From Mitsuaria sp. GD03876 (GTDB lineage Bacteria > Pseudomonadota > Gammaproteobacteria > Burkholderiales > Burkholderiaceae_C): a DNA stretch of 64,000 bases. The notes beneath the pieces were generated by a model. That model was not told where the DNA came from. It did no database searches and saw nothing but the letters and a program-made list of their open reading frames with translations. The stretch is taken from the NCBI RefSeq assembly GCF_029840635.1, contig NZ_JAOCCU010000011.1:62001-126000 (forward strand), read 5' to 3'. The first letter of the stretch is position 1; every line of letters starts with the position of its first letter. This document shows, piece after piece, positions 45,153 through 55,116 of the stretch. The position numbers and the translations under genes are program-made.

Positions 45153-45167
45153 TGAAGTAAAACTACA
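45153..45167 (-). promoter_or_regulatory. Candidate operator upstream of pulA
   Basis: TGAAGT-AAA-ACTACA is a near-palindrome 35-49 nt before the pulA start, overlapping where its promoter should be. The 10-bp half AAAACTACAT (45159-45168) recurs inverted at 45260-45269, 91 bp away towards mlaA. LacI-type sugar regulators use sites of this style, so maltodextrin control is a guess. Confidence 0.4.
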
Positions 45168-45291
45168 TGCGATACGTGGTGAAATCCCCAATCACTCGGA
45201 GGATGCAGGCGATGCGTCAGTGATTCGAGGGACGTTTCAGAGGAATTCCGGAGATTTGAATGTAGTTTTGCTCCGTGTTTCGCGTGAGGGT

Positions 45292-45311
45292 GGTGGTAAG
45301 GACCCGGAAAG
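45292..45311 (+). promoter_or_regulatory. Shared 20-bp box upstream of mlaA
   Basis: The box reads GGT then GGTAAG-GACCC-GGAAAG-like, a direct repeat with 11-bp spacing, ending 50 nt before the mlaA ATG. It matches the box upstream of mipA (51631-51650) at 18 of 20 positions. An 11-bp-spaced hexamer repeat is the usual target of OmpR/PmrA-type regulators. Confidence 0.55.
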
Positions 45312-45361
45312 TCGACCCGCCGCACGATGCCGGCGCTCCATCCCGGAGCAGGAGCCCTCTC

Positions 45362-46099
45362 ATGTCGACCCTCGCTTCCCTGGCCGGTGCCCGCCGGCCC
45401 GCCTCGCCGCTCGCCCCGGCCGCGCTGCTGGCCGCCGCGCTGCTCGCCGGCTGCGCCACGCCGCAGAACCCCGATCCGCTGGAATCGGTCAACCGCAAGA
45501 CCTTCGCGCTCAACGAGGGCGTCGACAAGGTCGTGCTCAAGCCGGTGGCCACGGTCTACAAGGCGGTGCTGCCGACGCCCGTGCGCACCGGCGTGTCCAA
45601 CTTCTTCTCCAACCTCGGCGATCCCTGGTCGGGCGTGAACCTGATGCTGCAGGGGCGCTTCAAGGCCGGCTTCTCGGACTTCGCCCGCTTCGGCACCAAC
45701 TCCACCGTCGGGTTGCTGGGCGTCATGGACGTCGCCACCGACTGGGGCCTGCCGCGCCACGGCGACGGCTTCAGCGACACGCTGGGCGCCTGGGGCGTCG
45801 GCGGCGGCGCCTACCTGGTGCTGCCGATCTTCGGACCGTCCGACCTGCGCGGCACCGCCTCGATCCCGGTCAACAGCTTCGGCAACCTGGCCGGTTACCT
45901 CGACGACGCCGGCGCCCGCAACGCGCTGATGATCGTGAACATCGTCGACAAGCGGGCCGGCATGCTCGAGCTGACCAAGACCATCGACGAGATCGCGCTG
46001 GACAAATACCTGTTCGTGCGCGACGCCTACCTGCAGCGACGCACGCAGCGCGAGACGGAACGGTCGGCCAAGCCCGCGCCCGCGGACGGCCCGACCTGA
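45362..46099 (+). CDS. mlaA: MlaA/VacJ phospholipid-transport lipoprotein
   Basis: This 245-residue outer-membrane lipoprotein has a lipobox AALLAGC near residue 32 and the conserved MlaA core: DPLESVNRKTFALNEGVDK (segments DPLESVNR, FALNEGVD), GVSNFFSNLGDPW, and NSTVGLLGVMDVA with GWG-like and GGGAYLVLPIFGPS. MlaA removes surface-exposed phospholipids from the outer leaflet and hands them to MlaC. It is encoded apart from mlaBCDEF here, divergent from pulA. The upstream 20-bp box links it to mipA. Confidence 0.95.
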   Translation: MSTLASLAGARRPASPLAPAALLAAALLAGCATPQNPDPLESVNRKTFALNEGVDKVVLKPVATVYKAVLPTPVRTGVSNFFSNLGDPWSGVNLMLQGRFKAGFSDFARFGTNSTVGLLGVMDVATDWGLPRHGDGFSDTLGAWGVGGGAYLVLPIFGPSDLRGTASIPVNSFGNLAGYLDDAGARNALMIVNIVDKRAGMLELTKTIDEIALDKYLFVRDAYLQRRTQRETERSAKPAPADGPT

Positions 46100-46154
46100 T
46101 CCTCGCGATCCGGGGCCCCCGCGCGATCGGGGCCCCGGGTCCGGCGCGGGCCGG

Positions 46155-47129
46155 TCAGGCGGCGACGGCCTCGAGCGCCAGCAGCATCCCGTAGAACGCC
46201 GCGGCCAGGCCGCTCAGCAGGCTCGAGTTCAGCAGGAACTTCAGCGCCCGGTAGGTGCGGCGGCGCTCGGCGCGCAGCTTGAGCGAGCGCTCGCGCCACG
46301 GCGCGAGCCGGACGAACAGCGCGCTGAACACGCCGCGCCGGTCCTCGTCGGTGTTGGGCACGACGGTGCCCCGCGCGATCCGCAGGTACAGCGCGTGCAC
46401 CAGCCGGCCCGGCAGGTGCATCGGCCGGTCCACGTCGCACATCAGGATCAGGCGCGGGCGGTCGCTGTCGTTGAGCGCGCGATGCGGGTAGGTCTCGTCG
46501 AAGACGAAGTCCTGGCCGTCGCGCCAGACCATCGTCTGGTCGTCGACCTGCAGCCGGCAGGCGTCGCCGCCGGGCGTGTCCAGGCCGAGGTGGTAGCGCA
46601 GCGAGCACGCCATCGGATCGGCATGCAGCGACAGCTCCGCGCCCGGCGGCAGGATCGAGAACATCGCGCCGCGGACCTGCGGCAGCCGCGCCAGCAGCTC
46701 GACGCTGCGCGGGCACAGCCGGCGCGCCGAGGCGTGCGTCGTCCCGTACCAGTTCAGGTAGAACTTGCTCCAGCCGCGCTTGTAGAAGGTGCGGAAGCCC
46801 ACGTCGTAGAAGCCGGCCGAGCCCGGCGCCTTGGCGGCCTCGAAGGCGCCCGAGGCCTCCAGCGCCAGCGCCTCGTCGCGCAGCACGCGCCAGTGCTCGC
46901 GCAGCAGCCCGACCTGGTCGAGGTAGTCCGCCGCGATCACCGGCCGGCGCGCCCAGGCCTTCGTCGACAGGTACATCAGGCAGTTCAGCGGCGCGAAGAC
47001 GGGCCAGCTCTTGCGCAGGTACTGGGTGAAGCTGTCGTAGCGCGCCTGGCCGCGCCAGCGGTAGACGTAGGCGACGCAGCCCGCCGAGTAGACGAGGGCG
47101 GCGGCCAGGCCGAGGAGAGGCAGACTCAT
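46155..47129 (-). CDS. lpxO: Lipid A 2-hydroxylase (LpxO-type aspartyl/asparaginyl hydroxylase)
   Basis: This 324-residue protein has an N-terminal membrane anchor (LLGLAAALVYSAGCVAYVY), an LpxO-like region (VFAPLNCLMYL, LREHWRVLRDEALALE, YDVGFRTFYKRGWSKFYL) and the Fe(II)/2-oxoglutarate oxygenase core: iron ligands in LSLHADP and FDETYPHRALND, and Arg in RPRLILMCDVDRP for 2-oxoglutarate. LpxO hydroxylates the 3'-secondary acyl chain of lipid A. A C-terminal hydrophobic segment (SSLLSGLAAAFYGMLL) may be a second anchor. The start overlaps the RND gene stop by 4 bp, which ties lipid A modification to an efflux operon. Confidence 0.88.
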   Translation of the reverse strand: MSLPLLGLAAALVYSAGCVAYVYRWRGQARYDSFTQYLRKSWPVFAPLNCLMYLSTKAWARRPVIAADYLDQVGLLREHWRVLRDEALALEASGAFEAAKAPGSAGFYDVGFRTFYKRGWSKFYLNWYGTTHASARRLCPRSVELLARLPQVRGAMFSILPPGAELSLHADPMACSLRYHLGLDTPGGDACRLQVDDQTMVWRDGQDFVFDETYPHRALNDSDRPRLILMCDVDRPMHLPGRLVHALYLRIARGTVVPNTDEDRRGVFSALFVRLAPWRERSLKLRAERRRTYRALKFLLNSSLLSGLAAAFYGMLLALEAVAA

Positions 47130-50100
47130 GCGAAGGCTTTCTTGACGCGGACGATCAGGTCGTCGACCAGACTGTAGACAACGGGTATGACAAGCAGGCT
47201 GAGGGCGGTGGAACTCAGCAGGCCCCCGATCACGACGATGGCCATCGGCACGCGGAAGCTCGGATCGCCGACCAGGCCCAGCGCCACCGGCAGCATGCCG
47301 GCGCCCATCGCGATCGTCGTCATGACGATCGGCCGCGCGCGCTTGCGGCAGGCGTCCACCAGCGCCTCGGCCCGGGGGAGGCCATGATCGCGCCGCGCCA
47401 GGACGATGTAATCGACAAGCAGGATCGAGTTTTTCGTCGCCACGCCCATCAGCATGATCAAGCCGATCATCGAGGGCATCGACAGCGACGAGCCGGTGAC
47501 CCACAGCGCCAGCATCGCGCCGGGCAGCGACAGCACCAGCGCGATCAAGAGCGTCAGCGGCTGCACGAAGTCGTCCAGCAGCAGCGCCAGCACCAGGTAG
47601 ATGCACAGCACGCCGGTGACCATCGCCATCGCGAAGCCGGCCGTCATGTCCTCCATCTCCTCGGCGTCGCCCAGCGCCCCGAGCGCGATGCCGCGCGGCA
47701 GGTCCTTCAGGCTGGGCAGCGCCAGCGCCTCGCGCTCGATCTCGCCCAGCGGCCGGCCGCCGGCCTCGACCTCCAGCGTCACGGTGCGCCGGCGGTCGCG
47801 GCGCTGGATCTCCACCGGGCCGCTGTCCAGTTCCAGCGACGCGACGTGCTCCAGCGCCACCGGGCCGCGCGCGCCCGGCACCGGCAGGCGCCGCAGCACG
47901 CCCAGGTCCTCGCGGGCGCTGTCGTCCAGGCGTACCCGCACCGGCACCTGGCGTTCGCCGAGGTTGAGCTTGGCCAGCGACTGCGCGTAGTCGCCCACGG
48001 TGGCCACGCGCAGCGTCTCGGCGATCGCGGACGAGGAGACGCCCAGGTCGCCGGCGCGCGCGAAGTCGGTCCGCACCCGCAGCTCCGGCCGCGCCAGGCT
48101 GGCGGTCGACTGGACCGCGCCGACGCCAGGCAGCGCGCGCAGCTCGCGCTCGACGCGCTGGGCGTGGCGCTCCAGCGCCGCCGGGTCGTCGCCGGACAGC
48201 GCCAGCAGGTAGCTGTCGCCGGAGCCGCCCTGGCCGACCTTGACGCGCACGCCCGGCACCGCGGCCAGGCGCTCGCGCAGGTCCGCCTCGATGCGCTGCT
48301 GGGTGAGGCCGCGCGGCCGGTCGGCGCGGGGCGCCAGCGTGAGCGTCAGCACCGCGGTCCGGACATCGGCCCCGGCGCCGCCGCCGTCGCCCGGGCCGTC
48401 GCCGCCGGTGCCGCCGACGCCGATGGCGGTGAACACGCCGCGCACCTGCGGATGCGTGGCGACCAGCGTCCGTGCCTGCTCCGCCGACGCGACCGTGGCC
48501 GCGAGCGGGCTGCCCGGCGGCAGCGTGATCGTGATCTCCGACCGGATGCCGTCGTCGGCCGGGATGAAGGTCGTCGGCAGCAGGACGGCCACGCCGAGGC
48601 CGACCGCCAGGAAGGCGGTGGCAGCCGCCACCGTCACCGCGCGACGGCGCAGGCACCAGCGCGCCAGGACGAGGTAGCGGCTCACCCAGACGGGTTCGGC
48701 GTTCGCCTCGCGTTTCGGCGGGCGCAGCAGGTAGGCGGCCATCATCGGCGTGAGCAGGCGCGCCACGACCAGCGAGCACAGCACCGCGCCGGCCGCGGTC
48801 CATCCGAACTGCACGAAGAACCGGCCGACGGTGCCGCTCATGAAGGCCGTCGGCAGGAACACCGCGACCAGCGTCAGCGTCGTGGCGATCACCGCCAGGC
48901 CGATCTCGTCGGCCGCCTCCATCGCCGCCTGGTACGGCGTCTTGCCCATCAGCAGGTGGCGCTCGATGTTCTCGATCTCGACGATCGCGTCGTCCACCAG
49001 CACGCCGACCACCAGCGACAGCGACAGCAGCGTGACCGTGTTCAGCGTGAAGCCCATCGCGTGCATCAGCGCGAAGGTCGGAATGACCGACAGCGGCAGC
49101 GCCGCCGCCGCGATCGCCGTGGCGCGCGCGTCCCGCAGGAACACGAACACCACCAGCACCGCCAGCGCCGCGCCCTCCAGCAGCAGCCGCATCGAGCCGT
49201 CGTGGTTCTCGACGATCTGGTCGGTGAAGTCCAGCGTCTCGACCAGCCGCAGCTCCGGATGGTCGGCGCGCAGCCGCGCCATCGCGCGGCGCACGCCCTC
49301 GGCCACGTCCAGCTCGCCGAAGCCGCGGGCCCGCATGACCTGCAGGCCCACCGCCGGCCGGCCGTCCACGAGCGCCGCGGTGCGCGGCTCCGCGACGGTG
49401 TCGGCCACGGTGGCGACCTGGTCCAGGCGCACGCGCCTGCCGTCGCCCAGCGCCAGCTCGATCGCGCCGATCTCCGCGGCCGTGCGCACCGTGCCGATGG
49501 CGCGGATCGACTGCTCGGTGCCGCCGAGGTCGACGCGGCCGCCGGCGCCGTCCTGCTGCGTCTCGCGCAGCCGGCGCGAAATCTCGGCGGCGGTCGTGTT
49601 CAGCGCCATCAGCCGCCGCGGATCGAGCGTGACGCGCACCTCGCGGTCGACGCCGCCGACGCGCTTGACCTCGCCCACGCCCGGCACCGCCAGCAGCGCC
49701 TTGGCGGCCTCGTTGTCGATGAACCAGGACAGCGCCTCGGTGTCCGGGTCCCGCGCGGTGACGGTGTAGGTCAGCAGCGGACCGCCGACGACCTCGACCC
49801 GCTTGATCACCGGATCGCGCAGGTCGGCCGGCAGGTCGCCGCGGACGCGGGACACCACGTCGCGGACGTCGTCCAGCGCCTGCGCGGTGGGGATCTCGAG
49901 CCGGAACTCGAGGGCGATCTCGGCGCTGCCGTCGGTCAGCGTCGTCGACTGGTGCTTGAGGCCGGGGACGGTCGCGAGCGCGTCCTCGAGCTTGCGCGCC
50001 ACCTCCGTCTCGAGTTGGGACGGCGAGGCGCCGGGCAGCGACGCGGTGACGGACACGCGCGGCAGGTCGACATCGGGGAAGTCCTGCACCGGCAGGGCGG

Positions 50101-50194
50101 GGAAGGCCATCGCGCCCAGCACCGTCAGCAGCACGAACAGCAGGATCGCGGGCGAGGGATGGCGGATGGACCAGGAGGAGACGTTGAAGCGCAT
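47126..50194 (-). CDS. RND efflux pump, inner-membrane transporter
   Basis: This 1022-residue transporter belongs to the HAE-1/AcrB-like family. It begins with an amphipathic start and TM1 (PAILLFVLLTVLGAMAFPALPVQ in part), has the porter-domain VSVTASLPGASPSQLETEV, the TM4 proton-relay aspartates in LVDDAIVEIENIERH, and the paired repeat in the second half (NSILLVDYIVLAR). Twelve TM helices and two large periplasmic loops are expected. Length is normal. It lies 12 bp after the membrane fusion gene and overlaps lpxO. Substrate is unknown; no outer-membrane channel gene is adjacent. Confidence 0.95.
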   Translation of the reverse strand: MRFNVSSWSIRHPSPAILLFVLLTVLGAMAFPALPVQDFPDVDLPRVSVTASLPGASPSQLETEVARKLEDALATVPGLKHQSTTLTDGSAEIALEFRLEIPTAQALDDVRDVVSRVRGDLPADLRDPVIKRVEVVGGPLLTYTVTARDPDTEALSWFIDNEAAKALLAVPGVGEVKRVGGVDREVRVTLDPRRLMALNTTAAEISRRLRETQQDGAGGRVDLGGTEQSIRAIGTVRTAAEIGAIELALGDGRRVRLDQVATVADTVAEPRTAALVDGRPAVGLQVMRARGFGELDVAEGVRRAMARLRADHPELRLVETLDFTDQIVENHDGSMRLLLEGAALAVLVVFVFLRDARATAIAAAALPLSVIPTFALMHAMGFTLNTVTLLSLSLVVGVLVDDAIVEIENIERHLLMGKTPYQAAMEAADEIGLAVIATTLTLVAVFLPTAFMSGTVGRFFVQFGWTAAGAVLCSLVVARLLTPMMAAYLLRPPKREANAEPVWVSRYLVLARWCLRRRAVTVAAATAFLAVGLGVAVLLPTTFIPADDGIRSEITITLPPGSPLAATVASAEQARTLVATHPQVRGVFTAIGVGGTGGDGPGDGGGAGADVRTAVLTLTLAPRADRPRGLTQQRIEADLRERLAAVPGVRVKVGQGGSGDSYLLALSGDDPAALERHAQRVERELRALPGVGAVQSTASLARPELRVRTDFARAGDLGVSSSAIAETLRVATVGDYAQSLAKLNLGERQVPVRVRLDDSAREDLGVLRRLPVPGARGPVALEHVASLELDSGPVEIQRRDRRRTVTLEVEAGGRPLGEIEREALALPSLKDLPRGIALGALGDAEEMEDMTAGFAMAMVTGVLCIYLVLALLLDDFVQPLTLLIALVLSLPGAMLALWVTGSSLSMPSMIGLIMLMGVATKNSILLVDYIVLARRDHGLPRAEALVDACRKRARPIVMTTIAMGAGMLPVALGLVGDPSFRVPMAIVVIGGLLSSTALSLLVIPVVYSLVDDLIVRVKKAFA

Positions 50195-50206
50195 CGCGAC
50201 GGGTCC

Positions 50207-51400
50207 TCAGCGCTGGGCCTCGACGACGCGCACGCGGTCGCGGTCGCCCAGGAAGGCGATGCCGGACGCGACGACGCGGTCGGTCCGGTCCAAGCCTTCC
50301 AACACCTCGATCCGGTCGCCGGCCTGGCGGCCCAGCCGCAGCCGCGTCCGGGTGACGCGCTGGTCGGCGTCGACGCGCAGCGCGTGCACCAGGCCCTCGC
50401 GCATCTGCACCGCGCCGCGCGGCAGCGTGGTGGCGGCACTGGCGCCGAGGTCGAACTCGCCTTGCGCGTAGCTGCCCGCGCGGGCGGCGCCCGGCGCCGG
50501 CAGGTCCACGTAGACCAGCCCGTTGCGGGTGAACGCGTCCACGACCGGCGAGACCATGCGCACCTCGCCGGCGATCGCGACGCCGTCCGCCAGCGTCACG
50601 CGCACCGCCTGCCCGGGCCGGATGCGCGCGAGGTCGGGCGCCGCGACTTCCGCGCGCCATTCGAGCCGGCCGCGCCGGATCAGGCGGAACAGCTCCTGGC
50701 CCGCCGGCACGACCGCGCCGACGGTCGCCGCGCGCGCGGACACGATGCCGTCGTCGGGCGCCAGCAGGCGCGTCTGCCGCAGCCGCAGCCGCTGCAGTTC
50801 CTCGACCGCGCGGGCCGCGTCGAGCCGCGCCTGCGCCGAGAGCTCGGCGGCCAGGCTCTGCTGGACCTGCTGCTGCGCCATCGCGCCGCTGGCCTCGAGC
50901 GCCCGGGCGCGCCGCGCGTTGCCCGCGGCCTCGCCCAGCGCCGCGACGGCCGCCGCCGTCTCCGCGCGGCGCTGCGCGAGTTCCGCCTCGACCGTGTCGG
51001 CCGCGAAGCTCGCCAGCAGCTGCCCGCGACGCACGGTGTCGCCGACGTTGACGGCCACCTCGGCCAGGCGCAGGCCGTTGGCCTCGGCGCCGATCAGCGC
51101 CTCCTGCCAGGCCATCACGTTGCCGTTGGCGCTCAGCCGGATCGGCAGCGTCTCGGTGCGCAGCTGCGTCACGGTGACGGTCAGCGCGGGCTTCTCGGTT
51201 CCACCGGCGCCACCCGCGCCTGGGGCGGTGCCCGCTGCGTTGGCGGTGGCGTTGGCGTCGGCGTCGGCGGAGGCCGTGCCGGAGGCGGTTGCCGTGGCCG
51301 CGGTGGCGGTCGCCGTGCCGCCGACGAAGCGGATCGCCAGCGTGGCGCAGAGGACCGCCGCACCGGCGACGGTCAGGATGAGTTTGAGGGGAGGGGACAT
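50207..51400 (-). CDS. RND efflux membrane fusion protein
   Basis: This ~397-residue periplasmic adaptor has one N-terminal membrane segment (LILTVAGAAVLCATLAI), an Ala/Thr/Gly-rich linker (residues ~28-70), a biotinyl-lipoyl half (ANGLRLAEVAVNVGDTV), an alpha-hairpin (ELAQRRAETAAAVAALGEAAGN) and the beta-barrel/membrane-proximal part ending FLGDRDRVRVVEAQR. It links the RND pump to an outer-membrane channel. ATG at 51400 is preferred; a start at 51472 would add an Arg-rich stretch before the anchor. First gene of the operon with the pump and lpxO. Confidence 0.93.
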   Translation of the reverse strand: MSPPLKLILTVAGAAVLCATLAIRFVGGTATATAATATASGTASADADANATANAAGTAPGAGGAGGTEKPALTVTVTQLRTETLPIRLSANGNVMAWQEALIGAEANGLRLAEVAVNVGDTVRRGQLLASFAADTVEAELAQRRAETAAAVAALGEAAGNARRARALEASGAMAQQQVQQSLAAELSAQARLDAARAVEELQRLRLRQTRLLAPDDGIVSARAATVGAVVPAGQELFRLIRRGRLEWRAEVAAPDLARIRPGQAVRVTLADGVAIAGEVRMVSPVVDAFTRNGLVYVDLPAPGAARAGSYAQGEFDLGASAATTLPRGAVQMREGLVHALRVDADQRVTRTRLRLGRQAGDRIEVLEGLDRTDRVVASGIAFLGDRDRVRVVEAQR

Positions 51401-51475
51401 CGCGGCGCGGGAGGAAGGAAGCGGGCAGGGCCGCTGCCGGCCCCGGTCGAGGGACGCGACTATCCGGCGCACCGA

Positions 51476-51492
51476 CTTGCCAGCCCCTTACT
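51476..51492 (-). promoter_or_regulatory. Weaker copy of the GGTAAG box facing the RND-lpxO operon
   Basis: Read on the minus strand the site is AGTAAG-GGGCT-GGCAAG, two mismatches from the ideal GGTAAG-N5-GGTAAG direct repeat. It ends 75 nt before the membrane fusion start. Similarity and 11-bp spacing are seen; regulation is inference. Confidence 0.35.
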
Positions 51493-51520
51493 GACCCGTC
51501 GCGTGGCGCGGCGGCCCATG

Positions 51521-51592
51521 CGGCGACCGCTCCGGCGACCACTCCGGCGACCGATCCTGCGACCGATCCGGCGACCGATCCGGCGACCGGCG
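51521..51592. repeat. Six imperfect 12-bp tandem repeats
   Basis: The unit CGGCGACCGATC is repeated six times with one to three changes per copy, in the divergent region between the membrane fusion gene and mipA. It lies between the two candidate regulator boxes. It could move them relative to each other if the copy number varies, or be a protein-binding array. Confidence 0.9.
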
Positions 51593-51630
51593 CGGCGGCC
51601 GGTCCTGACCGACTGGGAGCTGGCCAACCG

Positions 51631-51650
51631 GGTGGTAAGGACGCGGTAAG
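51631..51650 (+). promoter_or_regulatory. Shared 20-bp box upstream of mipA
   Basis: GGT then GGTAAG-GACGC-GGTAAG form a perfect hexamer direct repeat with 11-bp period, ending 51 nt before the mipA ATG. It matches the mlaA box at 18 of 20 positions and lies at the same distance. The nearest candidate regulator is the OmpR-type protein encoded two genes on. Confidence 0.6.
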
Positions 51651-51701
51651 ACGCTCGCCCCGACGATGCGGGCTCTTCTCACCGCCCCTTCCGGGAACCC
51701 C

Positions 51702-52649
51702 ATGGCCACGCAGATCCGTCCCCTGTCGACCCGCTCCACGGCGCACCTTCGCGCAGCCTCTTCCACCGCCTTCTCCTCCGCCTCTTCCGCCGGCTCTTCC
51801 GCCGCCTCCGCCTCCTCTCCGACCGTCGGGGCGATCACGCTACCGACCGTCTTTTCCGTGGCCCTGGCCGCCGTCCTGCTGACGGCCGGCGCCGGCGCGC
51901 GGGCTGCCGGCCCAGGCGGTCCCGGTAGCCCTGGCGGTCCTGGCGGCGCCGACGGCAAGGGCTCCAGCTGGGGCCTGGGCATCGGCGCGATCTCGATGCA
52001 GAAGCCATACAAGGGCATGGACCGCGAGACCAAGGCGCTGCCGATGCTCAGCTACGAGAACCGCTGGGTGAAGGTGTTCGGCCCCGGCCTGATGGTCAAG
52101 CTGCCGTCGGCCACGCTCAGCCCGACGCAGCGCATCGACTTCGGCCTGGTGGCCAAGTGGAGTCCCGGCGGCTACGAGGCCGACGACGCGCCGATCCTCA
52201 ACGGCATGGCCGAGCGCAAGGGCGGGATCTGGGTGGGCGGCAAGGCGACCTGGCAGGGCGAGCTCGCCGAGCTCGGCGCCGAATGGACGACCGATGCCTC
52301 GGGCCACAGCAAGGGCCAGCGCCTGGCCCTGACGCTGGAGCGCTCCTGGCGCTTCGGCCCGAGCGTGATGCTGACGCCGCGCCTGGGCGCCAACTGGCTC
52401 GACAAGAAGTACGTCGACTACTACTACGGCGTGCGCGCCAACGAGGTCGCCGCCAACCGCGCCGCCTACCGCGGCCGCTCCGCCTTCAACCCGGAGATCG
52501 GCCTGCGCGGCATGTACATGTTCAACCGGCAGCACTCGATGTTCGTCGACGTCGGCGTGACCAGCCTGGCCAGCAGCATCAAGGACAGCCCGCTGGTCGA
52601 CGCGTCGACCGAGAACCGCGTGTTCATCGGGTATCTCTACCGCTTCTGA
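51702..52649 (+). CDS. MipA/OmpV family outer-membrane protein
   Basis: This ~315-residue beta-barrel precursor has a long Ser/Ala-rich N-terminus before a hydrophobic signal segment (TVFSVALAAVLLTAGAGARA, ending near residue 68), a Gly/Pro-rich linker (GGPGSPGGPGG) and the MipA/OmpV barrel: GIGAISMQKPYKGMDRETKALP in part, YENRWVKVFGPG, LERSWRFGPSVMLTPRLGANW and the C-terminal strand NRVFIGYLYRF ending in Phe. The start at 51702 puts the box at the same distance as in mlaA; ATG at 51666 is possible. E. coli MipA scaffolds MltA and PBP1B; this branch often pairs with a two-component system, as here. Confidence 0.9.
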   Translation: MATQIRPLSTRSTAHLRAASSTAFSSASSAGSSAASASSPTVGAITLPTVFSVALAAVLLTAGAGARAAGPGGPGSPGGPGGADGKGSSWGLGIGAISMQKPYKGMDRETKALPMLSYENRWVKVFGPGLMVKLPSATLSPTQRIDFGLVAKWSPGGYEADDAPILNGMAERKGGIWVGGKATWQGELAELGAEWTTDASGHSKGQRLALTLERSWRFGPSVMLTPRLGANWLDKKYVDYYYGVRANEVAANRAAYRGRSAFNPEIGLRGMYMFNRQHSMFVDVGVTSLASSIKDSPLVDASTENRVFIGYLYRF

Positions 52650-53335
52650 TGAACCGCATCCTGCTGGTCGAGGACCACGACCGCCTGGCGCGGTTCATGT
52701 GCAAGGGCCTGGGCGAGGCCGGCATCGCCGCGGACGTGGTGGACCGCGCCGGCCTGGCCTGGGCCTCGCTGCAGCAGCTGCCGTACCGGGCGGTCGTGCT
52801 CGACCGCGGCCTGCCCGACGGCGACGGGCTGGCGCTGCTGCAGCGCCTGCGCGACGCGGGCAACGGCACGCCCTGCCTGGTGCTGACCGCGCGCGACGCG
52901 CTGCACGACCGCGTCGCCGGGCTGGAGGCGGGCGCCGACGACTACCTGGCCAAGCCCTTCGCGATGAACGAGCTGGTGGCGCGGGTGCGGGCGCTGCTGC
53001 GCCGGCCGGCCGAGCTGCGGCCGCTGGCGCCCGAGCACGGCGACCTGCTGCTGCAGCCCGACACGAGCACGATCCGCTGCGGCGAGGAGGCGGTCACGCT
53101 CGCGGCGGCCGAAATGCAGATCATGATGCTGCTGCTGAACAAGGGCGGCGACACGGTGCGGCGCGGCGCGCTGGAGTCCGCGGGCTGGGGCCTGGGGACG
53201 GCGGTGACGCCAAACGCGCTGGACGTCGCCGTGCACCGGCTGCGGCGCAAGCTCGCCGCGATCGGGTCGAATCAGCGCATCGTCAACGTGAGAAACCTCG
53301 GATATGCCCTTCACGACGCCCACGTGGCTGAGTAG
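52649..53335 (+). CDS. OmpR/QseB-type response regulator
   Basis: This 228-residue regulator has a receiver domain with acidic pocket LLVEDHD, phosphoacceptor in VVLDRGLPDGDGL near residue 51, T in VLTARDA and lysine in YLAKPF, then a winged helix DNA-binding domain (LAAAEMQIMMLLL, NALDVAVHRLRRKLAA, IVNVRNLGYAL). It starts one base inside the mipA stop (TGATG), so it is co-translated with mipA, and overlaps the kinase start by 32 bp. It is the natural candidate for binding the 11-bp-spaced GGTAAG boxes. Confidence 0.95.
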   Translation: MNRILLVEDHDRLARFMCKGLGEAGIAADVVDRAGLAWASLQQLPYRAVVLDRGLPDGDGLALLQRLRDAGNGTPCLVLTARDALHDRVAGLEAGADDYLAKPFAMNELVARVRALLRRPAELRPLAPEHGDLLLQPDTSTIRCGEEAVTLAAAEMQIMMLLLNKGGDTVRRGALESAGWGLGTAVTPNALDVAVHRLRRKLAAIGSNQRIVNVRNLGYALHDAHVAE

Positions 53336-54698
53336 CCTGACGCTGAAGGTGATGCTGGCCTACGTGGCGGGCGTGCTGCTGACCATCGCCACGCTGGCGC
53401 TGATCTTCAACGGCGTGACCACGTTGCGCGGGCCGCTGTTCTTCGACGAGGACATCACCGAGTTCGCCGAGGAGCTCGGCGAGAACCTGCACTTCGACGC
53501 CTCGGGCGCGCCGACCGGCCTGGCCGTGGACGAGCAGCGCCGCGAATGGCTCTACCGCGTGCTCAAGGACGACCTGGCCTACCGGGTGCTGGACGCATCG
53601 GGCCGCGTCGTGATCGAGCCCACGCCGGCCAACCCGATCTGGCCGGCGGCCGGCGAGGGCGCCCGCGTGCTGCGCCCGGGCAAGTTCGAGTTCACCTACG
53701 CCGGCCAGCGCATGCAGGGCGCGACCGAGGCGGTGCCGCACCAGGGCCGCACCTGGTACCTGCAGCTGGCGGGCAGCGCGCGGCTGTTCGAGCTCTTCCG
53801 CCTGGACTTCGCGCTGCCGTTCATGGGCATGGGGATGGTGCTGTTCAGCTCGGTGATGCTGCTGCTGTTCGGCGTGTGCGTGTTCGTGATGCTCAAGCGG
53901 GTGCTCAAGCCGCTGCACGACGTGTCGGCGACGGCGGCGGCGATCTCGCCGCGCTGGCTGCACGCGCGGCTGCAGGTCGACCGCGTCCCGTCGGAGATCG
54001 TGCCGCTGGTGGAGAGCTTCAACCGCGTGCTGGAGCGGCTGGAGCGCGGCTACCGCGTGCAGCAGGAGTTCCTGGCGATGGCCGCGCATGAGCTCAAGAC
54101 GCCGCTGGCGCTGATCCGCGCGCAGGTCGAGTTCATGGAGAAGGGCCAGGCCGACGACTCGCTGCTGCAGGACGTCGAGCACATGACGCGGCAGGTGCAG
54201 CAGCTGCTGTTGCTGGCCGAGGCCAGCGAGGTGCAGAACTACCAGTTCCAGCCGACCGACATGGGCGCGGCCGCGCAGGAGGCGATCGGTTACCTGCGCC
54301 GGATGGCCGACGCGCTGGGCGTGGAGGTCGAACTCCGCGTGGCCGGCGAGGGCACGACCTGGGACGCGGACCGCGGCGCGGTGTTCACGCTGCTGAAGAA
54401 CCTGCTCGAGAACGCGCTGCAGCACGCGCCGGCGGGCAGCCGGCTGAGCGTGGAGGTCGGCGAGCGGGCGCTGTCGGTGCGCGACCGCGGCCCGGGCGTG
54501 ACGCCGGAGCAGCTGTCGCGGATGTTCGGTCGCTTCTGGCGCGGCGCCCACCGGCGCGACCATGGCGCCGGGCTGGGCCTGGCGATCTGCCAGGAGATCG
54601 CGGACGCCCACGGCTGGACGCTGAGCGCGGAGCGCGAGTCGCCCGGACTGCGGATGGTGGTGGTCCGTCCCGAGGACGGCGCGCCGGCCCCGGTCTGA
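53304..54698 (+). CDS. Sensor histidine kinase
   Basis: This 464-residue inner-membrane kinase has TM1 (LKVMLAYVAGVLLTIATLALIF), a periplasmic domain of ~140 residues rich in acidic residues at its start (FFDEDITEFAEELGE), TM2 (FMGMGMVLFSSVMLLLFGVCVFVML in part), a HAMP-like linker, the H box MAAHELKTPLALI near residue 258, and the ATPase motifs NLLENALQHAP, RDRGPGV and HGAGLGLAIC. It should phosphorylate the regulator encoded just upstream. The periplasmic sensor is unclassified; a cationic or envelope signal is plausible for a mipA/lpxO-linked system but is not shown. Confidence 0.94.
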   Translation: MPFTTPTWLSSLTLKVMLAYVAGVLLTIATLALIFNGVTTLRGPLFFDEDITEFAEELGENLHFDASGAPTGLAVDEQRREWLYRVLKDDLAYRVLDASGRVVIEPTPANPIWPAAGEGARVLRPGKFEFTYAGQRMQGATEAVPHQGRTWYLQLAGSARLFELFRLDFALPFMGMGMVLFSSVMLLLFGVCVFVMLKRVLKPLHDVSATAAAISPRWLHARLQVDRVPSEIVPLVESFNRVLERLERGYRVQQEFLAMAAHELKTPLALIRAQVEFMEKGQADDSLLQDVEHMTRQVQQLLLLAEASEVQNYQFQPTDMGAAAQEAIGYLRRMADALGVEVELRVAGEGTTWDADRGAVFTLLKNLLENALQHAPAGSRLSVEVGERALSVRDRGPGVTPEQLSRMFGRFWRGAHRRDHGAGLGLAICQEIADAHGWTLSAERESPGLRMVVVRPEDGAPAPV

Positions 54699-54702
54699 GG
54701 CC

Positions 54703-55116
54703 TCAGGACGCGCGCAGCGAGGACAGCGTCATCGGCCGGCTCGACGCCAGGCGCGGCGCCTCGGCCAGCATGTTCAGGTCGGCGAGGAAGCGCTCCAGCT
54801 CGCGCCCCTTGTCGTAGAAGGCGTTGGCGCCGTTCTGCACGCACAGCGGGCCGTAGATCTCGGCCTCGCGGTTGCTCAGGACCAGGATGGTCCCGCCGAA
54901 GCCGGCCGCGCGCAGCTTGCGCAGCACCGTCAGCCCCGAGCCGGCGGCCAGCCCCAGGTCCAGCACCACCACGTGCGGGCGGGTCAGTCCGACGGTGCAC
55001 AACGCTTCCGCCTCGGTCGCGGCCAGGCCGACCACCGACAGGAACGGCTGTTCCTTCAGCGTTGCCAGCAGGTGCTTGCGAACCAGCGGGGAGTCTTCGA
55101 CGAGTACGACTTTCAT
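54703..55116 (-). CDS. Single-domain response regulator
   Basis: This 137-residue protein is a receiver domain with little else: VVLVEDSPLVRKHL at the start, phosphoacceptor in VVVLDLGLAAGSGL near residue 53, LVLSNRE and FYDKGRELE with the conserved lysine, then an Ala/Ser-rich tail. With no output domain it may act by protein contact, as CheY-like or phosphorelay proteins do. It is convergent with the histidine kinase gene (4 bp between the stops). Confidence 0.9.
   Translation of the reverse strand: MKVVLVEDSPLVRKHLLATLKEQPFLSVVGLAATEAEALCTVGLTRPHVVVLDLGLAAGSGLTVLRKLRAAGFGGTILVLSNREAEIYGPLCVQNGANAFYDKGRELERFLADLNMLAEAPRLASSRPMTLSSLRAS

Follow-up and report, generated by a model that had tools for sequence, protein, structure and literature searches.

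The window, that is, the whole stretch of 64,000 nt from Mitsuaria sp. GD03876 analyzed here, carries on the plus strand a gene for a lipoprotein of the MlaA family (45362-46099; PF04333, 232.9 bits). The gene is called accessory mlaA, since its product scores 119.8 against the NCBIfam MlaA equivalog, which has a cut-off of 375; another mlaA homolog, less closely related (48%), is partially contained in contig C48, which ends within it. The minus strand carries the genes of an RND periplasmic adaptor (MFP, 50207-51400), of an RND efflux permease (47126-50194) and, downstream of the latter, of a lipid A hydroxylase homolog (46155-46922), LpxO-like only, as it scores 234.8 against the NCBIfam LpxO equivalog, below the cut-off of 500. 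The ATG at 51400 is preferred as MFP start over the GTG at 51472, because the GTG falls within a predicted promoter. Back on the plus strand lie mipA (51702-52649), encoding an outer-membrane protein of the MipA/OmpV family (PF06629), the gene of an OmpR-class response regulator (RR, 52649-53335) belonging to clade A, whose ATG overlaps the mipA stop codon, and the gene of a sensor histidine kinase (HK, 53304-54698) with HAMP, HisKA and HATPase_c domains. The receiver (PF00072) and Trans_reg_C (PF00486) domains of the RR both score above cut-off. A receiver-only response regulator of 137 aa (54703-55116, minus strand) is encoded next to the kinase gene and convergent with it. The sequence TGTAGTTTTRCT occurs in both orientations, at 45156-45167 (minus) and 45261-45272 (plus), between a pullulanase gene and mlaA (2 matches vs. 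0.03 expected), and the pair is perhaps, at a guess, an operator of the pullulanase gene.

Two similar boxes reside on the plus strand, GGTGGTAAGGACCCGGAAAG (box 1, 45292-45311) upstream of mlaA and GGTGGTAAGGACGCGGTAAG (box 2, 51631-51650) upstream of mipA. As an earlier note on this DNA had claimed, they are identical at 18 of 20 positions, and the distances from their ends to the ATG codons at 45362 and 51702 are 50 and 51 nt, respectively. The same note had assigned a perfect direct repeat to both; this holds true for box 2, which reads GGTAAG-N5-GGTAAG, and has to be amended for box 1, which reads GGTAAG-N5-GGAAAG. The similarity extends beyond the 20-mer, as a -10-like hexamer, [CG]ACGAT, is found in both promoters 11 nt past the second half-site. 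The predicted operator-promoter of mlaA thus spans 45295-45328 (plus strand, GGTAAG-N5-GGAAAG-N11-CACGAT, -10-like hexamer at 45323-45328), and that of the mipA-RR-HK operon 51634-51667 (plus strand, GGTAAG-N5-GGTAAG-N11-GACGAT, -10-like hexamer at 51662-51667). Of two possible mipA starts, the ATG at 51702 is preferred, because the one at 51666 overlaps the -10-like hexamer. The conserved repeat, with its 11-bp period, fits the site geometry of OmpR/PhoB-class regulators, and is a predicted operator.

Random placement of the box was not seen genome-wide. The 20-mer was found, with up to 3 mismatches, only at the two boxes in the 6.36-Mb genome, with no third copy, and the reversed control gave 1 match. 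The alignment of exact matches defined the full element as GGTAAG-N5-GGTAAG-N11-[GC]ANNAT, an OmpR-class direct repeat ahead of a -10 hexamer. The exact GGTAAG-N5-GGTAAG repeat occurs twice in the genome, in the mipA box and at C6:17605-17621, upstream of a paralogous mipA-RR-HK operon, the RR of which is 61% identical to the window RR. Among 16 Roseateles genomes the exact repeat was found 15 times in 13 genomes, each match being about 1.05 kb or less from an RR of the clade (8 matches in the reversed control; two matches in genome G010 overlap). With up to 2 mismatches, the full element had 41 matches in the 16 genomes (10 in the control), 21 of which reside at mipA/RR loci, 4 on the efflux side opposite mipA, 4 at mlaA, 5 at an epimerase-like gene, 1 at a more distant RR, and 6 in unrelated places. 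At 3 mismatches no enrichment was observed in the Mitsuaria genome, where 40 matches fall below the 68 of the control; the idea of a large regulon was dropped on these numbers, and the regulon claim is consequently limited to strong sites. The site at the epimerase-like gene (GGTAAT-N5-GGAAAG-N11-CAGAAT) is present in five Roseateles genomes (the G000 copy at C1:131864-131897, locus L150), about 50 nt upstream of the gene in both loci read, and may be either one more target or a promoter of no relation to the regulon. GGTAAG-N5-GGTAAG sites ending in GCACAAT were noticed in other genomes of the family (L311, L312, L313 and L318), in stretches with no mipA match, and apparently belong to other genes.

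Conservation of the box at mipA was monitored in RR relatives outside the genus. The best 80 of 387 relatives were taken; once 9 belonging to Roseateles or closely akin to it had been set aside, 71 loci remained, and in 54 of these mipA lies upstream of the RR gene. In 52 of these 54 RR-linked loci, the 320 nt preceding mipA contain a box that matches at 10 or more of the 12 half-site positions, against 1 of 54 with reversed and 1 of 54 with shuffled sequences. Boxed loci include members of Pseudomonas, Halomonas relatives, Alcanivorax, Kosakonia, Xanthomonas, Herbaspirillum and other Burkholderiales. All 52 sites, though selected by the half-sites alone, have A as second and T as sixth base of the -10 hexamer. 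A matrix was built from the 52 non-Roseateles sites, none of the 9 set-aside loci being included. Over the window the mipA site scored 27.7, the mlaA site 21.6, a site on the minus strand at 51459-51492 scored 18.2, and the next one 6.6; in 60 simulated windows with the dinucleotide frequencies of the window, the maxima averaged 5.6 and did not exceed 16.5. The matrix run confirms both reported boxes independently, and adds a third box.

The accessory MlaA has close orthologs in genomes G005, G008 and G010 (79-80% identity) and in G210 (70%), which belongs to another genus. The window gene included, the box is kept in 5 of 5 of these orthologs, spanning two genera. In the 7 pairs of promoters compared, 11-12 of the 12 half-site positions are identical, as opposed to 12-27 of the 60 positions upstream. 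The 30 nt downstream of the box are also nearly identical in G005, G008 and G010, which are therefore to be regarded as close kin. The box is not a rule for MlaA in general, as no site matching at least 10 of 12 bases was found at the 71 other mlaA loci scanned (15 + 27 + 29; L066, whose upstream region lies off the contig, was left out). A weaker, 10/12 site precedes one Acidovorax mlaA (53%) which adjoins a mipA-RR-HK operon; the site was read in L176, since in L319, which holds the same gene, the contig ends. A structured mlaA leader overlapping the ribosome-binding site was also considered, and dropped (z = 0.66 in the window, -2.19 in G005, 2.01 in G210).

The third box, absent from the earlier note, is a predicted element (AGTAAG-N5-GGCAAG-N11-GATAGT, 51459-51492, minus strand, half-sites at 51476-51492) upstream of the MFP-RND genes. 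It is weak in the window (AGTAAG/GGCAAG); the MFP promoters of G005, G008 and G010 feature GGTAAG-N5-GGAAAG-N11-GACAGT. A box was found on the MFP side in 23 of the 24 rows with an MFP match, the single miss being the window row, in which the protein match ran past the promoter and the box was found by the other scans. In G210, boxes precede the lpxO-like gene, the mipA-RR-HK operon, the efflux operon and mlaA. The LpxO-like gene has its own box in one of four rows only, that of G210; in the window it is assumed to be co-transcribed with the RND gene. By these sites the regulon is likely wider than mlaA and mipA, including the RND pump and, perhaps, LpxO. The window MFP-RND genes (50207-51492) lack the outer-membrane factor gene which sits between box and MFP in G005; its presence there was confirmed by domain, and it is assumed for G210. 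PAP2-family genes reside behind boxes in Luteimonas, Lysobacter and Variovorax (L173, L181, L182, L228 and L194).

The base of box 1 that departs from the direct repeat, base 3 of the downstream half-site, is common to efflux boxes. Best sites were picked for each gene by a score omitting this base. Base 3 is T in 75 of 75 mipA boxes (79 rows, 4 of which have no box). Of the 23 MFP boxes, 21 have A and 2 have C, seven of the MFP rows being near-identical Halomonas-group loci and the others coming from about a dozen genera; the base is A in the five close-ortholog mlaA boxes, and in the single lpxO box (4 rows, 3 of them without a box). Altogether A or C is found in 29 of 29 best efflux, mlaA and lpxO boxes. 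In a looser listing of all sites, mipA boxes have T in 62 of 62 instances; boxes on the MFP side have A in 23 instances, C in 3, T in 2 and G in 1, and of five mlaA boxes four have A and one, which its sequence identifies as the Acidovorax box, has T. The box of one PAP2-type gene varies, with T in L173 and L181 and A in L182 and L228, and in L211 a box of the A class lies on the RR side. The split is thus clean at the best site for mipA vs. efflux genes and the five close mlaA orthologs, and mixed elsewhere; as a strict law it is rejected by the exceptions in the looser listing. The exact effector pattern has 8 matches in the 16 Roseateles genomes, 4 at mlaA, 3 at MFP-RND genes, and 1 in G011, in the equivalent position opposite mipA, at a contig end; with up to one mismatch there are 36 matches, against 7 in the control.

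Among 18 aligned RRs, the C-terminal helix, which we take to be the DNA-reading recognition helix, is almost invariant. The window and C6 RRs have AVTPNALDVA.HRLR in common, and presumably read DNA by nearly the same helix. In trees, the window RR and HK fall in the wide clade A, the C6 copies in another clade. In G005, G008, G010 and G011 the HK gene follows mipA directly, with no RR gene between; in a tree from which G005 was omitted, its stretch being cut, the window HK is joined by those of G008, G010 and G011 with support 100/100. As other clade A loci have an RR, the local one was probably lost rather than never present. The mipA, mlaA and RND boxes are kept in G005, G008 and G010, and because they persist without a local RR, an RR encoded elsewhere must act in these genomes. 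An RR-HK pair with a box directly in front is indeed found elsewhere in G005, G006, G008, G010 and G011. In G006 (L149), a boxed mipA is followed by a short C-terminal remnant of the kinase, the RR and most of the kinase being missing. The gene arrangements suggest that the RR can act in trans, and that either RR could serve the boxes in the window genome.

Taken together, comparative genomics (52 of 54 mipA loci, 5 of 5 mlaA orthologs) supports the view that one family of OmpR-class regulators acts on mlaA and mipA. The boxes are read here as operators of one envelope-stress regulon resembling the ParRS/MipA system, a reading to which we give a probability of about 0.85. Chance similarity between boxes 1 and 2 is ruled out by the genome scan, the matrix scores and the comparison of mlaA promoters. 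It could still be argued that the mlaA box is a match devoid of function, one half-site base being off the repeat consensus and close orthologs being only five. This is highly improbable, as the box is kept in all five, which represent two genera and whose upstream flanks agree at about chance level; its matrix score exceeds the maximum of the simulated windows, the exact effector pattern is confined in 16 genomes to mlaA and the position divergent from mipA, and none of the 71 other mlaA loci scanned has the box. By counting, the boxes overlap the would-be -35 position, hence the RR might repress rather than activate. Repression is improbable too: the -10 hexamers are poor and column counts revealed no -35 consensus, which is expected of activator-dependent promoters, and the fixed 11-nt spacing resembles that of the PhoP class II promoters (PMC3335776).

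More weight has to be given to the identity of the regulator. The earlier note had pointed to the RR co-translated with mipA, which is still a good candidate, though not the sole one, given the C6 paralog and the boxes kept without a local RR. The boxes might be real and yet served mainly, or jointly, by the C6 RR, whose operon has its own exact box and whose C-terminal helix is that of the window RR; moreover, in G005, G008 and G010 the only RR with more than 50% identity among the matches listed is that of the separate RR-HK locus. Set against this are the intact window RR and HK, and clade A loci (e.g., in Alcanivorax, Pseudomonas and Rhizobacter) in which the box is paired with an adjacent clade A RR. 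A main or shared role of the C6 regulator is possible, if somewhat doubtful.

From the sites, their spacing and conservation, the genes behind them and the base difference, we infer RR binding, activation, the signal and the thresholds of the regulon read here as ParRS/MipA-like. The mipA-RR-HK unit would detect a disturbance of the outer membrane, most likely of the kind caused by cationic peptides. The phosphorylated RR would bind head-to-tail to the two 6-bp half-sites, 11 bp apart, in place of a -35 element, and act by class II activation, recruiting RNA polymerase to the -10 hexamer that lies 11 nt downstream. Its own operon would be raised in this way, and so would the effector units, namely accessory mlaA, through which lipid asymmetry would be restored, and the MFP-RND efflux genes together with the LpxO-like gene that follows them. 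The downstream half-sites NGTAAG (mipA) and NGAAAG or NGCAAG (efflux, close-ortholog mlaA) plausibly set different thresholds. By analogy, envelope damage is the most likely signal, and efflux, lipid maintenance and the system's own genes are the most likely targets of activation. A two-tier code, in which one RR would tell sensor operons (GGTAAG-N5-NGTAAG) from effector operons (GGTAAG-N5-NGAAAG), together with signalling in trans to a regulator encoded elsewhere by MipA-kinase pairs such as those of G008, G010 and G011, is a tentative proposal with chances a little short of even, and because exceptions exist the code would be a strong tendency, not a rule. If true, a single change in the half-site nearest to the -10 hexamer would impose an order or a threshold, with autoregulation at sensor operons and a separate class at efflux, mlaA and lpxO.

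The original finding holds, and its interpretation was largely correct. To it are added a third promoter, the layout of these promoters, another candidate for the regulator, and a base which mostly sorts sensor from effector operators. The box provides a searchable operator for loci in which mipA is linked to a two-component system, and a protein of the MlaA family is brought into a circuit with efflux and perhaps lipid A modification. The one-base difference, recurring across about a dozen genera, suggests that the regulator may separate sensor genes from effectors, and relatives with MipA and kinase but without a local regulator are natural tests of MipA as kinase co-sensor. No published description of the box, or of joint control of mlaA and mipA, was found among the papers listed by searches of the open-licence literature, which does not prove absence.

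Known systems offer several terms of comparison. The best match of the window RR is PmrA in NCBIfam and BasR in PDB, yet its 172.9 bits against the PmrA equivalog fall below the cut-off of 330; the system differs from PmrA/BasR, as from BqsR, in a half-site base and in targets. The BqsR site is TTAAG-N6-TTAAG, and in one promoter that was dissected its downstream pentamer coincides with the -35 (PMC4682146); its spacing is that of GTAAG-N6-GTAAG here. The Salmonella PhoP box of architecture I, a direct repeat of hexamers separated by 5 nt and located about 12 nt upstream of the -10 hexamer in class II promoters, is close in layout to the box reported here (11 nt before the -10), and differs in sequence, (T/G)GTTTA (PMC3335776). 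PhoP submotifs with a variant in one repeat have been described (PMC3335776); unlike in these, the variant base tracks here the kind of gene. BesRS of Burkholderia thailandensis, a two-component system responsive to polymyxin, also has a MipA/OmpV protein in its regulon, but its cis element differs, being made up by inverted and direct repeats of the TGCG/TGCA type (PMC9426598). The closest parallel is the ParR/ParS-MipA-MipB-MexXY-OprA system of P. aeruginosa, in which MipA reportedly binds polymyxins and serves as co-sensor of ParS, and ParR activates mipBA and mexXY-oprA; mipA reportedly adjoins a two-component system in most homologs examined there (PMC10936184). The likeness is one of gene layout and box position. 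There, a regulator site precedes the mip operon, induction by polymyxin is reported, and an RND pump belongs to the regulon (PMC10936184); at the window locus, likewise, mipA is linked to a two-component system, and a candidate box lies in the promoter of an RND pump, as it does on the MFP side throughout the rows with an MFP match. No mipB was found beside mipA at the window locus, where the divergent neighbour is the MFP gene. In comparison with ParRS as known from that source, the present system is thus distinguished by the lack of mipB, the gene order mipA-RR-HK, and boxes which also precede the accessory mlaA.
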